Part shown: positions 23,281 through 33,131 of the stretch, piece after piece | How positions within the stretch are numbered: position 1 is the stretch's first letter | Layout of the letters: each line of letters opens with the position of its first letter | Source of the DNA: Actinobaculum sp. 313 | Lineage (GTDB): Bacteria; Actinomycetota; Actinomycetes; Actinomycetales; Actinomycetaceae | Length of the DNA: 64,000 nucleotides | Assembly: GCF_003073475.1 (NCBI RefSeq) | Contig: NZ_CP029033.1 | Span: forward strand, 620,001-684,000 | Reading direction: 5' to 3' | Program-made: the position numbers and the translations under genes | The notes under the pieces: generated by a model | What the model was told of the DNA's origin: nothing | The model's input: the letters and a program-made list of their open reading frames with translations, nothing else | The model's database searches: none

Positions 23281-24378
23281 GTGTCACTGACTATTGGAAT
23301 CGCAGGCCTGCCCAACGTCGGCAAGTCCACCCTGTTCAACGCCCTGACTCGGGCGACGGCGCTCGCGGCGAACTACCCCTTCGCTACCATCGAGCCGAAT
23401 GTCGGCGTTGTGCCGCTACCGGATAGCCGACTCGACGATCTGGCAAAGCTGTTCAACTCGGCGAAGATTGTTCCCGCGACGGTGTCTTTCGTGGATATCG
23501 CAGGGATTGTGCGGGGCGCCTCTCAGGGGGAGGGCTTGGGCAACCAGTTCCTTGCCAATATTCGTGAGGCGGACGCGATATGCCTGGTCACGCGCGCATT
23601 TGCCGATCCTGACGTGGTGCACGTGGAGGGCCGCGTTGACCCGAAGGACGATATCGAGACGGTGACAACGGAGCTGATGCTCGCCGATATCCAGACCTTG
23701 GAAAAGCAGATCCCGCGCCTGCAAAAGGAAGTGACGGGCAAGAAGACTCCGAAGGAAGTGCTGGACACCGCGCAGGCGGCGCTCGCGCTGCTGGAAGAGG
23801 GCAAGGTGCTCTCCGCTCATGCTGGATCGCTGGGCTCGGATATCCTCAAGAGCTTCCAGTTAATGACCACCAAGGCGGTCATTTACGTTTTCAATACCGA
23901 CGACGACGGCCTGGCAGACGACGCCATGCAGGCAGAGCTGCGAGAGTTCGTGGCGCCTGCCGAGGCGATTTTCCTTGACGCCAAGTTCGAGGCGGAGCTG
24001 GTGGAGCTGGAGCCGGAGGAGGCGAGGGAACTCCTGGAAGCCACCGGGCAGAGCGAATCGGGGCTCGACCAGTTGGCGCGGGTCGGCTTCGACACGCTCG
24101 GCCTGCAGACCTTTCTGACTGCGGGGGAGAAGGAGTCGCGCGCCTGGACGATCCACAAGGGGTGGACCGCCCCACAGGCCGCAGGCGTGATTCATACCGA
24201 CTTCGAGAAGGGTTTCATCAAGGCTGAGATCGTCAGCTATGACGACCTCATTGCGTACGGTTCCATGGCCGAGGTGCGCGCCCACGGGCGAGTGCGCATG
24301 GAGGGCAAGGACTACGTTATGGCCGACGGGGACGTGGTGGAGTTCCGCACGGGACTTACGTCTGGGAGTAAGAAGTGA
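23281..24378 (+). CDS. ychF: Ribosome-binding ATPase YchF (OLA1)
   Basis: YchF is an Obg-family P-loop protein that prefers ATP and associates with ribosomes. The 365-residue product begins VSLTIGIAGLPNVGKSTLFNALT (P-loop), then switch region DIAGIVRGASQGEGLGNQFL, a coiled-coil insert (~residues 125-190), and the C-terminal TGS domain (SRAWTIHKGWTAPQAAGVIH to the end). GTG 23281 gives the family start. Its stop codon overlaps the start of the following restriction-modification gene by 4 bases (GTGA), an unusual link between a core gene and a defence gene. Confidence 0.96.
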   Translation: MSLTIGIAGLPNVGKSTLFNALTRATALAANYPFATIEPNVGVVPLPDSRLDDLAKLFNSAKIVPATVSFVDIAGIVRGASQGEGLGNQFLANIREADAICLVTRAFADPDVVHVEGRVDPKDDIETVTTELMLADIQTLEKQIPRLQKEVTGKKTPKEVLDTAQAALALLEEGKVLSAHAGSLGSDILKSFQLMTTKAVIYVFNTDDDGLADDAMQAELREFVAPAEAIFLDAKFEAELVELEPEEARELLEATGQSESGLDQLARVGFDTLGLQTFLTAGEKESRAWTIHKGWTAPQAAGVIHTDFEKGFIKAEIVSYDDLIAYGSMAEVRAHGRVRMEGKDYVMADGDVVEFRTGLTSGSKK

Positions 24379-26934
24379 GCGAGCAGGCCGCAGTGACAGT
24401 CCCCAGCGACGACGAAGCGCCGGACGGCAAGGTCGTCGACTATATCTCCGGCATCCAGGTGCCTGCCAAGCCTGAAGAGCTGCTCGCGGTCCAGCCGTTC
24501 GCCCGCCAACTCGTCGAGGACTACGGCTACCCCAAGGGGCACATCCGCACAAGGCCCCAGTGGCACGTGAAGGCGCGCCCGTCGGACCGGGCGAAGACTT
24601 ATCCGGTCGACATCGCCGTCTTTAGCGGCGACCAGCATCGCGACGAAGACTTGTTCCTCGTGGTCGAGTGCAAGAAGCCGGACCGCCGCGATGGCCGGGA
24701 CCAGTTGGAGGACTACCTCCGCCTCTCCCGCGCTTACCTCGGCGTCTGGACCAATGGGGACGAGCGCCTCTTCCTACGAAAGCGTGAGGCCAACGGTAAG
24801 GTCACCTTCGACGAGATCCCTAACATCCCGCGCTACGGGCAGCGCGTCGAGGACATCGGCCTGTTCAAGCGCGAGGATCTACGACCGACCCATAACCTCA
24901 AGGCCGTCTTCCGCTCGATCCGTAACTACCTGGCGGCGAACGCCGTCGGCATGACGCGCGACGAGCCCCTAGCTCAGCAGATCATGAACCTCATCTTCTG
25001 CAAGATCTACGACGAGCGATTCACGCGACGCGACGCTGTCGTCACCTTCCGGGCGGGCGTGGACGAACCCGTTGCCGACGTGGCGGCGCGCGTGAAGGAG
25101 GCCTTCGCTCACGTGGTCAAGCAGTACAGCGATGTCTTCGACGACACGGACAAGATCGAACTCGACGACCGCTCCATCGCCTACGTTGTAGGCGAGCTCC
25201 AGCAGTACTGCCTGATCGAGTGCGAACGCGACGTCGTCGGCGACGCCTTCGAGACGTTCATCGGACCCTCCCTCAAGGGCGGCCAGGGGCAGTTCTTCAC
25301 GCCGCGCAATGTCACGCACCTGGTGCGGGCACTTGTGCGCCCGAAGATCCAGGACATGGTGCTCGACCCAGCCTGCGGCTCGGGCGGCTTCCTCGTCGAG
25401 GCCCTGCGTGGCCTGTGGGACCTCGTCGATGACCGTGCCGACGAGCTCCAGTGGCCCGACAGCGAGCGCGAGAGCGAGAAGCAGAAGGTCGCAATCCGCC
25501 AGCTGCGGGGGATCGACAAGGATGAGTTCCTCAGCAAGGTGGCCAAGGCCTACATGGCGCTACTCGGTGATGGTCGCGGTGGGATCTTCTGTGAGAACTC
25601 GCTGGTGCCGATGAGGGACTGGGGGGCTCAAGGCTCGCCAGGAAGTCTCCGTCGGCGAGTTCGACGTCATCATGACTAACCCGCCGTTCGGTCAGAAACT
25701 CAAGGTTACCGAACGCACGACCCTGGCCCAGTACGACCTCGGCTCCAAGTGGCGCAAGGCCAAGGGCGGTGTCGGCTACGAGAAGACGGATAAGGTCGCG
25801 GACTCGCAGACCCCGCAGATCCTCTTCATTGAGCGCTGTCTCGACCTGCTCAAGGATGGCGGCCGCATGGGCATCGTCCTGCCGGAGTCGATGCTGTGCA
25901 ATCCGTCGCACCGCTACATCATGCAGTACGTACTGAGCCGGGCGACGATCCACGCGGTCATTTCCGTGCACGAGAACCTCTTCCAGCCGCACACCCACGC
26001 CAAGACCGCCGTCGTGCTCTTGGAGAAGGGTGCTGAGCCCGCTGGCGAGTCGCACGACGTGTTCATGGCCGTCGCCCGCTGGTGCGGGCACGATTCACGA
26101 GGCCACTCAATCCCGTTCGACGACCTGCCCAAGATCGTCGAACGCTGGGAGAAGTATGCGGACGGTGAGGCGCTGGACTTCGACCACCTCGGCTTCGTCG
26201 TTGACTCCGCGCAGATCACGGACATGATCTACCTCCCCAAGTACTACAACCCCGAGGTCCGCGAGTCGGTTGAGCGCCTATCGAAGACCCATGACCTCGT
26301 GCGCCTGGGTGATCTGGTCACCCAAGGCGTGCTGTCAGTCTCGACCGGCGACGAGGTGGGCAAGCTGGCCTACGGCACGGGCTCGATCCCGTTCATCCGC
26401 ACCAGCGACATTGCAAACTGGCAAATCAAGGGCGACCCCAAGCACGGCCTCAGTGAAGCTCTATACGAGTCGCTGGCGGATAAGCAAAATGTCGCCCCTG
26501 GCGACATCCTCATGGTCCGGGACGGCACCTACCTCGTCGGCACCTGTGCCATCGTGACTGACCTGGACTGGAAGATCGTCTACCAGAGCCACATCCTCAA
26601 GTTCAAGGTCCTCGACGAGAGCAGGATGGACCCCCATATGCTGCTCGCTCTGCTGTCGTCACCTGTGGTCAAGTCTCAGATCTTCGCCAAGCGCTTCACG
26701 CAGGACATCATCGACACCCTGGGTGGTCGCTGGGCTGAGCTGGTCCTGCCGGTGCCTAAGGACTCCAAGCGGTGCAAGGAGATCACCGACTCAGTGAAGA
26801 AGGCGATTCTGTTGCGGCGCGAGGCCTCCGAGCTTTCGTGGCAGGCCGTCCAGAAGGTCGCGCCGAAGGTGGAAGGGGACCTCGAGCTGCTCGACGACGA
26901 GGCGGGGTACGGCTTCGGTATCCTGAACCAGTAG
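24375..26934 (+). CDS. Single-chain restriction-methylation-specificity protein (type I-like/IIG), frameshifted
   Basis: Three functional parts are in one gene. Residues ~15-130 resemble an HsdR N-terminal nuclease domain (PVDIAVFSG then LFLVVECKKPDRR, a PD-(D/E)XK pattern). Residues ~190-600 are an N6-adenine methyltransferase of HsdM type (GQFFTPRNV, SAM motif DPACGSGGF near 332, catalytic NPPFG). The last ~230 residues look like an HsdS target-recognition half (HDLVRLGDLVTQGV, IPFIRTSDI, VAPGDILMVRDG). GTG 24375 overlaps the ychF stop. The GGGGGG at 25621-25626 appears one base too long: removing one G restores WGLKARQEVSVGEFDVIMTN and an 852-residue product. It would methylate and cut DNA without separate subunits. 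Confidence 0.82.
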
Positions 26935-29721: not shown

Positions 29722-30156
29722 CTAGTCTCCACTCGCGGTTTCATCCCACGGGTTGATAACTGTCGCTTTGAGAGGTTGGAAATTTCTGACGTTTCGCGTG
29801 ACGATGGTCAGTCCGTATGCCAGAGCAGTTGCGGCAATGAGCGCATCTCGCTCGGGTCTTGGATCGGGCACGTGAAGGCGTGCCGCTTGACGTGCAACCG
29901 TCAAGTCAACAGGGATTATGCGGTTGGTGAATGCGTCAAGAACTCTGTTCTCAAGCCAGTTTCGCAGCAGTTGCGCTTGGTCCGGGTCTCGTCGACCTAG
30001 TCTCGCGATCCCGGTTTCAATCTCCAGGATTGTGATAACAGACAGATAGAACTCGTCTGCGTTATGCGACTCAACCCAAGTGCGCACCCGGTGTGCCGCC
30101 CGTCTGGCAGGTTTACGAAGTTCGCTTACGACATTGGTGTCTAGCAGGTAGCTCAT
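29722..30156 (-). CDS. vapC: VapC-type PIN-domain toxin (FitB-like)
   Basis: PIN-domain toxins are Mg-dependent ribonucleases that usually cut tRNA or rRNA loops. The 144-residue protein has the first acidic residue in YLLDTNVVSELRKP, an ILEIETGI Glu, the ERDALIAATALAYG block with the third acidic position, and TRNVRNF near the end. All expected active-site positions are present, so it should be functional. Its start overlaps the antitoxin stop by 4 bases, giving the standard antitoxin-first operon on the minus strand. Confidence 0.92.
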   Translation of the reverse strand: MSYLLDTNVVSELRKPARRAAHRVRTWVESHNADEFYLSVITILEIETGIARLGRRDPDQAQLLRNWLENRVLDAFTNRIIPVDLTVARQAARLHVPDPRPERDALIAATALAYGLTIVTRNVRNFQPLKATVINPWDETASGD

Positions 30157-30392
30157 AGGCCTGGATCCTTGAGATCGATCTTCAAGGGCTCGAAATCAAT
30201 ATTCAGGTCCTCATCCATGCTTAGGCGGTCAACCAATGAGACCTCGTTCTTGCTGAGGCGCCGATACTCGTCGATGGAAAGGAGAACATAGGCGGGCTTC
30301 CCTCGATCAGTGATAATGACGGGCCTCTTGCTGGCGTGGCGTTTGGCGGCACTGACGTCTTGATTGAACTCGCGAGCGGATATCTGAATCAT
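30153..30392 (-). CDS. vapB: Phd/YefM-type antitoxin
   Basis: This is a 79-residue DNA-binding antitoxin. The Phd fold is seen in MIQISAREFNQDVSAAKRHA and RPVIITDRGKPAYVLLSIDEYRRL; the acidic C-terminus (DEDLNIDFEPLKIDLKD) would wrap and block the PIN toxin. ATG 30392 follows GGAGGTG. The palindrome immediately upstream is the likely site of autoregulation. Confidence 0.92.
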   Translation of the reverse strand: MIQISAREFNQDVSAAKRHASKRPVIITDRGKPAYVLLSIDEYRRLSKNEVSLVDRLSMDEDLNIDFEPLKIDLKDPGL

Positions 30393-30403
30393 ACGTCACC
30401 TCC

Positions 30404-30547: not shown

Positions 30548-30555
30548 TGTACACC

Positions 30556-30689
30556 GTCCGGGCGGGCCGGCGATAGTCGGTTATCAGGACTGGAAGGTTC
30601 GGGGTTCAAGTCCCCGTCGGCATTAGCCGATAGCTCAAAGGTAGAGCGTCTGGCATTTTCTCCGGTTATCACAACATGACCGCCCGGAC
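30556..30689 (+). ncRNA. Y RNA 1 with tRNA-mimicking domain in permuted order (YrlA-like)
   Basis: Ends GTCCGGGCGG (30556-30565) and CCGCCCGGAC (30680-30689) form a perfect 10-bp terminal stem. A 22-nt block (30564-30585) beginning GGGCCG and ending GGTTATC recurs in all four RNAs and resembles the Ro60-binding strand of animal Y RNAs. Inside, tRNA parts occur in rearranged order. First comes a T-arm CGGGG/CCCCG with canonical 7-base loop TTCAAGT (30600-30616). Next is an acceptor-like hairpin TCGGC/GCCGA (30617-30630). Last is a D-arm GCTC/GAGC with loop AAAGGTA (30633-30647). The module lies upstream of the Ro60 gene. Bacterial YrlA RNAs are known to mimic tRNA and to bind Rsr/Ro60. It is not a working tRNA because the anticodon arm and order are wrong. 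Confidence 0.82.
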
Positions 30690-30770
30690 TTCAGTCATTC
30701 TGTTGCACCCATGGCCTACACATGTGCAGCATGACCATTGCCCGCAAACGGAGAGGAATCCAGACATGGG

Positions 30771-30890
30771 GCAGCCGCAAGCCATGCCGTAAAACCCACC
30801 ACCCTCATATGAACAAGAATCCCGGCATAGCGCTGCCGTAAGCCATGCCGTAAAACTCACCGCCCGCATATGGAGAAGAATCCCAGCCAA
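30771..30890. repeat. 61-bp direct repeat, two copies
   Basis: Matching blocks GCCATGCCGTAAAAC begin at 30781 and 30842 and extend across most of a 61-bp unit, including a CATATG and AGAATCCC core. A partial third copy may lie near 30740-30770. It fills the space between Y RNA 1 and Y RNA 2; function unknown. Confidence 0.75.
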
Positions 30891-30966: not shown

Positions 30967-31079
30967 GCGAACACAAGCAGAACGGGCCGAAGATCTTCGG
31001 TTATCGGAATTAGTTGGTTCGACCCCAGCCCTCTGCGGAGGATCCGGAGGTCAACACACGTCCGTTCCGCTTTGTTCGC
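30967..31079 (+). ncRNA. Y RNA 2
   Basis: The 5' strand GCGAACA (30967-30973) pairs with TGTTCGC (31073-31079), and AGAACGG further in pairs with CCGTTC, forming a long bulged terminal stem. The shared 22-nt Ro60-type block is at 30984-31005. A T-arm GTTGG/CCAGC with canonical loop TTCGACC is at 31013-31029, followed by a CCTC/GAGG hairpin that takes the place of the acceptor stem. A possible promoter TTGCAT (30908) with TACACT (30932) lies upstream. Called by similarity of parts to Y RNA 1. Confidence 0.7.
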
Positions 31080-31110: not shown

Positions 31111-31245
31111 GGGTGTGAATCTCTCGACGCCGGGCCGGAGGCCTTTGGTTATCGGTATTCGCTGGTTCAACTCCAGCACTCTTCGGAGCGGAGCATCCGG
31201 AGGCCACACCATGCCCGGTTTCACCCTCTTCGGTGGTGTCGAGAG
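31111..31245 (+). ncRNA. Y RNA 3
   Basis: The 22-nt block is at 31132-31153. CCGGGC (31130-31135) pairs with GCCCGG (31213-31218). An alternative or additional outer stem pairs CTCTCGACGCC (31121-31131) with GGTGTCGAGAG (31235-31245), so the 3' boundary is uncertain. A perfect T-arm GCTGG/CCAGC with loop TTCAACT is at 31161-31177, followed by a small CTC-TTCG-GAG hairpin. Confidence 0.68.
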
Positions 31246-31274: not shown

Positions 31275-31412
31275 CTTACGACGGGCCGAAGCTAGTCGGT
31301 TATCAATAAGGCTGCGGCAGGTTCTCCGGGTCAATACGGCCACGGTGATTAGTGCGGGTCGACGGCGGTTACGCCTGGTTTTCGGTAGCGCTCCACGCCC
31401 GTCGTCTCTAAG
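31275..31412 (+). ncRNA. Y RNA 4, variant upper domain
   Basis: ACGACGGGC (31278-31286) pairs perfectly with GCCCGTCGT (31397-31405), and CTTA/TAAG extends the stem after a bulge. The 22-nt block is at 31283-31304. No canonical T-arm is visible; a GGCG-GTTA-CGCC hairpin near 31365-31376 is present instead. The RNA ends ~110 bp before the Ro60 start codon, so it may be part of, or processed from, the Ro60 leader. Confidence 0.62.
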
Positions 31413-31523
31413 TGAATACGCGGCTCGGCGACGCCGTCGTCGTGCGCACAGTAGTCGTATCCGTGCATCCCGCCGATGCCACTACTCAAGCAACAGTCCC
31501 CGAGGAGAAAGGAAGGAAGGGAC

Positions 31524-33131
31524 ATGGACATTCTGAAGAGCATCAACACCAGGCGGACGCCACAAGGCATGCGGGCCACAGCGAGCCAGGTGCAGAACTC
31601 CGCCGGTGGTTACGTCTTTGCGCTGGACGACGCCGCCCGGTTGCGCCGCTTCCTGATTCTCGGGGTCGATGGGGGTACCTATTATTCGGCACCGCAGGAA
31701 CTGGCTGTCGACAATGCCAAAGTACTGGAGCGCATGGCTACGAATGACCCGGAAACGCTGGTCGAGACCATCGTAGATGTCTCTACGGGAGGACTTGCCC
31801 CCAAACAAAATCCGGCGCTGTTCGCGCTCGCCTACGCCGCATCGGTTCCGGAGTCGCGCGACGCCGCCCTGGCGGCACTGCCGAAGGTAGCTCGTACAGG
31901 AACACACCTGTTCACCTTCGCAACCTACGTCGAGCAGTTTCGAGGGTGGGGGCGTGGCCTGCGCCGGGCAGTCGCCTCGTGGTACACGGTGCGTGACGCC
32001 GACCAGCTTGCCTACCAGGCGGTCAAGTACCGCCAGCGTGGTGGTTGGACGCATCGCGACCTGCTGCGTCTGGCCCACCCGGTAGCCGAGAGCGCCGAGC
32101 TGCGTGCCACCTTCGACTGGATCGCACATGGTGCGGTCGGGGATGAAGTCCCCACGCTGATTGAAGGATTCGTCAAGGCGCAGGAAGTTGAGGCAAGCGG
32201 TAAAGGCGCTGCCAAGGCCTGGGCGGAACTCGTTCACGAGTACGGCCTGACCTGGGAGATGCTGCCGGACGAGGCGTTGACCATGCCGAAGGTGTGGGAT
32301 GCGCTGCTCGACGTCGGCATACCGATGACGGCTCTTATGCGTCAGCTGCCGAGGCTGACACGCCTGGGCTTGCTGCCCGCGATGGGCGGACGCACACGCG
32401 AGGTCTGCGCACAGCTGACCGACGCGGAGCGTCTGCGCAAGGCACGTATACACCCGGTGAATGTGTTGGTGGCGCAGCGTACCTATGCGCGGGGCACGTC
32501 AATGCGGGGTAGCGGCAAGTGGACGCCGACGCCGAGGGTCACAGCGGCCCTTGACGAGGCCTTCTACGCGGCGTTCGGTGCCGTGGAACCCGCGGGCAAG
32601 CGCACCATGCTGGCGGTCGATGTCTCCGGCTCGATGGGCTGGCCGATCTCCGGCATGATGATCACCGCCCGCGAGGCTTCAACGGCACTGGCCTTGGTAC
32701 AGTTGGCGACCGAACCGGAGGCAGCGGCCTTCGCCTTCTCCGGTTCGTTGGCGCGTAGGGAAAGATCACCTCTGCGGCCGCTGGATATCTCGCCGAAGCG
32801 CAGGCTCGACGACGCACTGGAAACAGTGAGTGGGATGCCGTTCGGCGCTACCGATTGTGCCGTGCCGATGCTGCATGCCACCAAGCAGCAGCTTGAGGTA
32901 GATACCTTCGTCATCTACACGGATAACGAGACCTGGGCCGGAGATATCCATCCGTTCAAGGCGCTGCGGGACTACCGTGAGCGCTCCGGCATTGACGCGA
33001 AACTCGTCGTCGTCGGAATGGTGTCTACGGGCTTCAGCATCGCTGACCCGAACGACGCCGGCATGCTCGACGTCGTCGGATTCGACGCTTCGGTGCCGAA
33101 CCTGATCTCGGAGTTCTCGCGTGGACTCTGA
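31524..33131 (+). CDS. rsr: Ro60/Rsr orthologue, TROVE-domain RNA-binding protein
   Basis: Ro60 is a ring-shaped RNA chaperone that binds Y RNAs on its outside and the 3' ends of misfolded RNAs in its cavity. In bacteria it works with exoribonucleases such as PNPase in RNA decay and rRNA maturation. The 535-residue product has the HEAT-repeat TROVE ring (residues ~15-345, with NTRRTPQ at the start and KYRQRGGWTHRDLLRLAHP) and a C-terminal von Willebrand A domain with the metal site DVSGS (366-370), GATDC and YTDNETW. ATG 31524 follows GGAAGGAAGG. The upstream Y RNA array is strong context support. A small HTH gene overlaps its 3' end. Confidence 0.95.
   Translation: MDILKSINTRRTPQGMRATASQVQNSAGGYVFALDDAARLRRFLILGVDGGTYYSAPQELAVDNAKVLERMATNDPETLVETIVDVSTGGLAPKQNPALFALAYAASVPESRDAALAALPKVARTGTHLFTFATYVEQFRGWGRGLRRAVASWYTVRDADQLAYQAVKYRQRGGWTHRDLLRLAHPVAESAELRATFDWIAHGAVGDEVPTLIEGFVKAQEVEASGKGAAKAWAELVHEYGLTWEMLPDEALTMPKVWDALLDVGIPMTALMRQLPRLTRLGLLPAMGGRTREVCAQLTDAERLRKARIHPVNVLVAQRTYARGTSMRGSGKWTPTPRVTAALDEAFYAAFGAVEPAGKRTMLAVDVSGSMGWPISGMMITAREASTALALVQLATEPEAAAFAFSGSLARRERSPLRPLDISPKRRLDDALETVSGMPFGATDCAVPMLHATKQQLEVDTFVIYTDNETWAGDIHPFKALRDYRERSGIDAKLVVVGMVSTGFSIADPNDAGMLDVVGFDASVPNLISEFSRGL

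Follow-up and report, generated by a model that had tools for sequence, protein, structure and literature searches.

A predicted YrlA-type Y RNA with a permuted tRNA-like domain upstream of rsr in Actinobaculum sp. 313

Upstream of the rsr gene of Actinobaculum sp. 313, a T-arm, an acceptor-like hairpin and a D-arm follow one another in permuted order, and the question is whether this arrangement marks a rearranged tRNA gene, an accidental likeness to tRNA or a Y RNA that imitates tRNA and, if the last, what the imitation might serve. The window, meaning the whole 64 kb stretch of DNA that was analysed, contains rsr (the Ro60 orthologue) at 31476–33131 on the + strand, where the Pfam domains TROVE (162.8 bits) and vWA_Ro60 (211.8 bits) were both matched. 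The closest named relative was an Actinomycetaceae MAG (93 % Rsr identity), and the source genome has one near relative within its genus. The predicted RNA, here termed Y RNA 1, occupies 30556–30689 on the same strand, with a gap of approximately 0.8 kb between it and rsr; a promoter search at the Y RNA locus gave no match.

Both ends of Y RNA 1 carried the sequence pattern of a Ro-binding stem, for which Rsr binding is predicted. The outer helix, formed by 30556–30565 and 30680–30689 (GTCCGGGCGG / CCGCCCGGAC), was present in the predicted fold. Inside it, the 5′ strand of helix 2 (30572–30580) can pair with 30662–30670 and leads into the conserved loop GGUUAUC at 30579–30585 (the element as a whole, 30572–30585; GATAGTCGG / CCGGTTATC), and the 3′ side of the stem spans 30662–30689. 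The helix 2/GGUUAUC motif was also present upstream of rsr in relatives. RF01656, a nematode Y-like model, caught the Ro stem weakly at 30558 (24.7 bits), 30978 and 31126.

Within this stem, all on the + strand, the 3′ strand of an anticodon-stem-like helix (CTGGA, 30590–30594, tRNA positions 39–43) is followed by a variable loop (AGGTT, 30595–30599, tRNA positions 44–48), a T-arm (CGGGG-TTCAAGT-CCCCG, 30600–30616), an acceptor-like hairpin of 5–6 bp (TCGGC-ATTA-GCCGA, 30617–30630), a UA linker equivalent to U8-A9 of tRNA (30631–30632), a D-arm with GG in its loop (GCTC-AAAGGTA-GAGC, 30633–30647) and the 5′ strand of the anticodon-stem-like helix (TCTGG, 30649–30653, tRNA positions 27–31). Position 55, in the T-loop, is U, and one U is present in the D-loop. 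The initial annotation had placed the T-arm, acceptor-like hairpin and D-arm in that order within 30600–30647, with the 3′ strand of the acceptor ahead of its 5′ strand, and both readings were borne out, the latter also by covariation in the hairpin. Folding of 30550–30695 gave −62.3 kcal/mol (z = −3.97), a stability reached by one of 200 shuffled sequences, and the minimum free energy (MFE) structure held all three hairpins within a long closing stem.

A match to RF02553 (YrlA) was obtained at 30574–30671 with 35.9 bits (E = 6e-6 in a 1 kb search), and the consensus of this family has the same order of T-arm, acceptor hairpin and D-arm within a short enclosing helix. The score lies below the RF02553 gathering score of 69, which is a curator's cut-off rather than a biological feature and was reached by none of the 15 rsr loci scored. 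Seven actinobacterial and alphaproteobacterial relatives (L005, L008, L012, L043, L057, L074 and L079) scored 33.6–48.1 bits; since these relatives also fall below 69 bits, the threshold appears too strict for the clade, and it is probably the cut-off rather than the membership that is at fault. The Y RNA frame with its Ro-binding stem, the position beside rsr (a linkage shared by 55 loci), the RF02553 match and the recurrence of the permuted order in homologues upstream of rsr all agree with the earlier description of a YrlA-type mimic. It is therefore very probable that 30556–30689 represents a bacterial Y RNA of the YrlA type whose tRNA domain is permuted.

The specificity of the arrangement was assessed by pattern searches. 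With a loose motif score, random windows reached values similar to that of the real site, and for this reason a strict descriptor was used, consisting of a five-pair T-stem with a TTCRA loop, a hairpin of at least five pairs, a two-base linker and a four-pair D-arm with GG. This descriptor matched once in the 64 kb window and not at all in 400 order-1 Markov windows of 64 kb, both strands being searched.

In a sample of 80 rsr loci, the 1 kb ahead of rsr was searched for homologous modules. Selection relied on the sequences of the T-loop and the D-arm, placed no constraint on the acceptor, and yielded 67 distinct modules from 55 loci, including the mycobacterial rsr loci of the sample. The T-stem was paired in 100 % of cases compared with 83.6 % for shuffled partners, a figure that is partly conditioned because only modules with at least four T-stem pairs were kept. 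For the acceptor stem, pairing reached 95.2 %, compared with 54.7 ± 2.2 % for shuffled partners and 27–61 % when the strands were slid, and C-G, G-C, A-U, U-A and G-U pairs occurred at most positions, the covariation counts being inflated by kinship among the sequences. Because many of these exchanges fall in distant groups (Actinomyces, Cellulomonas, Nocardioides, Nocardia, mycobacteria and alphaproteobacterial MAGs), conserved structure is by far the likeliest explanation of them. The strong covariation of the acceptor stem and the pairing of the arms in homologues are what the initial annotation had led one to expect. The linker was UA in 63 of the 67 modules and UG in the remaining four, and GG was present in every D-loop.

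Two unusual cases were seen in the sample. The Nocardia Y RNAs beside rsr (L046:2859–2960 and L039:2848–2945) have a D-arm region (TGGCCGAGTGG / TGGTCGAGCG) that resembles tRNA-Ser/Leu, as opposed to the usual TAGCTC type. A contig labelled Bathyarchaeota (L051:1082–1323) has an rsr (51 % identity) preceded by a full permuted module, possibly as a result of mis-binning or transfer.

The likeness to tRNA extended beyond the three arms. CTGGA (30590–30594) can pair with TCTGG (30649–30653), which begins one base past the D-arm, the position of the anticodon stem in tRNA. A fixed-register test, which replaced a free helix search that had given mixed registers, found this register 77.9 % paired in the 67 modules, compared with 46.3 ± 2.1 % for shuffled partners and 32–48 % when slid by 1–4 bases. 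In Y RNA 1 two of the five pairs are G-U and the helix is absent from the MFE fold, so that its formation in this RNA is likely rather than shown. The variable loop was likewise conserved, G46 being invariant in the 67 modules and U47 present in 62 of them. Thus an entire tRNA makes up the module: the break lies in the anticodon loop, at which the Y stem joins, and a small loop seals the acceptor end; the phrase ‘strikingly complete’, used of the mimic at the outset, even understated it. Along the RNA, the inner domain begins with the 3′ half of the anticodon-like stem and the variable loop, continues through the T-arm and the acceptor (3′ strand, tetraloop, 5′ strand), and ends with UA, the D-arm and the 5′ half of the anticodon-like stem.

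Y RNA 1 is one of four Ro-site motifs that precede rsr in the window. Y RNA 2 (30978–31068, + strand; RF01656, 22.7 bits) has a Ro stem, a perfect T-arm (GTTGG-TTCGACC-CCAGC, 31013–31029) and a short hairpin (31030–31041), with no room for a D-arm in its fold, and Y RNA 3 (31126–31221, + strand; RF01656, 23.3 bits) similarly has a Ro stem, a perfect T-arm (GCTGG-TTCAACT-CCAGC, 31161–31177) and a short hairpin (31179–31188) but no D-arm; in both, the short hairpin leads straight back to the Ro stem. Y RNA 4 (31278–31405, + strand) was recognized by its Ro-site motif and a 9 bp outer helix (31278–31286 with 31397–31405); its inner fold is uncertain and no T-arm was found in it. The rsr loci together yielded 137 Ro-site motifs, which were sorted into full (57), T-arm only (33), weak T-arm (five), possible (two) or without a T-arm (40), a rough classing in which D-arm variants can be missed. 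A T-arm was present in 33 of the 80 Y RNAs that were not full, compared with 0.2 expected by shuffling, and the T-arm-only type was met with in many actinobacteria. The full mimic was usually the farthest from rsr, as it is in the window, and Y RNAs without a T-arm were common in the rsr-proximal position in relatives. TruB requires the T-arm. A tentative reading is that actinobacterial rsr loci are graded arrays (full mimics, T-arm with short hairpin, and no tRNA parts) in which the T-arm-only RNAs may form a separate functional class, acting as minimal T-loop mimics that TruB or some other T-arm binder would recognize in the absence of the D/T elbow; a single Rsr might in that way be paired with different effectors.

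Some other features of the region were recorded. Between Y RNA 1 and Y RNA 2, an imperfect direct repeat of approximately 60 bases occupies 30765–30890 (...AAGCCATGCCGTAAAAC...CATATG...). On the − strand, 29722–30395 encodes a PIN-domain protein, preceded on the same strand by a small ORF that by eye has the look of a Phd-type antitoxin, the two being a probable toxin–antitoxin pair. Two overlapping ORFs in different frames at 24375–26934 matched HSDR_N and two pieces of N6_Mtase and possibly constitute a single frameshifted gene for a type I restriction-type methylase.

The order of the halves in Y RNA 1 is also that of a true permuted tRNA gene, whose 3′ half comes first and whose RNA is circularized and then cut in the acceptor loop to give a functional tRNA. 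Such a gene would need an anticodon loop and processable acceptor ends. Neither was found at Y RNA 1, where the anticodon end opens instead into the Ro stem. The acceptor helix, 5–6 bp here, varied from approximately 4 to 9–10 bp in relatives, and the loop that joins its strands was mostly 3–4 nt, variable and often a tetraloop of the UUCG, CUCG or GCGA type, with CCA in only five of the 67 modules. A search of the genome with RF00005 gave 46 ordinary tRNA matches, none of them at this site, and all of this makes a permuted tRNA gene exceedingly improbable. A false T-to-D order can also arise from two tandem ordinary tRNA genes or from a degraded tRNA, and the genome provides a case: its only other RF02553 match (28.4 bits) is an artefact lying between the tRNAs at 2378573–2378646 and 2378684–2378756. 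At Y RNA 1, however, no standard tRNA that uses these arms was found by RF00005 or by ARAGORN, which reported no tRNA in the window. When 30 tRNA loci of the genome were compared with the module, the best match was tRNA-Arg(ACG) and was partial only, indicating no single donor. The acceptor strands are complementary, stand 4 nt apart and covary across relatives, which refutes an origin in tandem or decayed tRNAs and leaves it with a negligible probability.

For the YrlA-type Y RNA that remains, studies in other species suggest that it is expressed and that the stem formed by its ends would bind the Rsr made by the downstream gene. The head would fold into a tRNA elbow through T-loop/D-loop contacts, and the whole would act as a tether, with the Rsr ring gripped by the stem and an effector (PNPase, by analogy) brought in by the head; the resulting particle would serve in RNA decay or quality control. 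TruB and a Dus enzyme would also treat the head as a tRNA and modify it; the genome encodes TruB, Dus and PNPase. The T-arm-only Y RNAs, which retain just the part that TruB needs, could fit a head that serves not as a PNPase tether but as a decoy or stable substrate of a tRNA enzyme such as TruB, Dus or an anticodon nuclease. In YrlA, the tRNA-like domain resembles the D-, T- and acceptor arms, and DusA and TruB act on it as modifying enzymes (reviewed in PMC8394870), and competitive inhibition of a tRNA nuclease has been proposed for Salmonella YrlA (PMC7790460). Nevertheless, PNPase tethering, demonstrated in Deinococcus as RYPER (PMC4726728, PMC8394870), is the sole effector role shown experimentally in the cited literature, and the decoy explanation appears rather unlikely. 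With the basal stem of YrlA held by Rsr and PNPase tethered to it (PMC8394870), we consider it reasonably probable that Y RNA 1 is a PNPase tether. As to the initial suggestion that the arms might be substrates for tRNA enzymes, modification would agree with the action of DusA and TruB on YrlA (PMC8394870) and with the TruB and Dus genes present here. Processing by RNase P or RNase Z found no support, as the module lacks leader or trailer ends and the few bases that join its acceptor strands vary and often form a stable tetraloop.

The permutation itself has already been published, the crystal structure of a bacterial Y RNA (6CU1) superposing on tRNA by circular permutation (PMC11472068), and Y RNA 1 is a fresh example of the described YrlA class. 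Its analysis nonetheless provides good support for YrlA mimics across Actinomycetaceae, Cellulomonas, Nocardioides, Propionibacteriaceae, Nocardia and mycobacteria, where the Rfam threshold misses them, and the covariation evidence extends the mimicry to the variable loop and to the upper end of the anticodon stem. The full, T-arm-only and arm-less Y RNAs that stand in series next to a single rsr also offer a natural comparison of which part of the mimic recruits which partner.

With YrlA (RF02553, Salmonella YrlA, PDB 6CU1) the RNA shares the T-acceptor-D order, the enclosing helix of 4–5 bp, the Ro-binding stem, the rsr neighbour and the circular permutation (PMC8394870, PMC11472068), although its sequence is divergent (35.9 bits against the gathering score). 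The Salmonella operon has the order rsr-yrlBA-rtcBA (PMC7790460), whereas the Y RNAs of the window lie ahead of rsr. Permuted tRNA genes likewise have the 3′ half upstream of the 5′ half, but the RNA of the window is set in a Y RNA stem and has neither an anticodon loop nor processing ends. The Y RNA of Deinococcus radiodurans, known here from papers rather than from sequence, is bound through its stem by Rsr and tethers PNPase in RYPER (PMC4726728), a likeness that would apply to the window by analogy. The Yrl RNAs of Mycobacterium smegmatis and other actinobacteria, bound by an Rsr orthologue (PMC4726728), are likewise actinobacterial, whereas the window comes from another family, the Actinomycetaceae, and carries four Y RNAs in a row.
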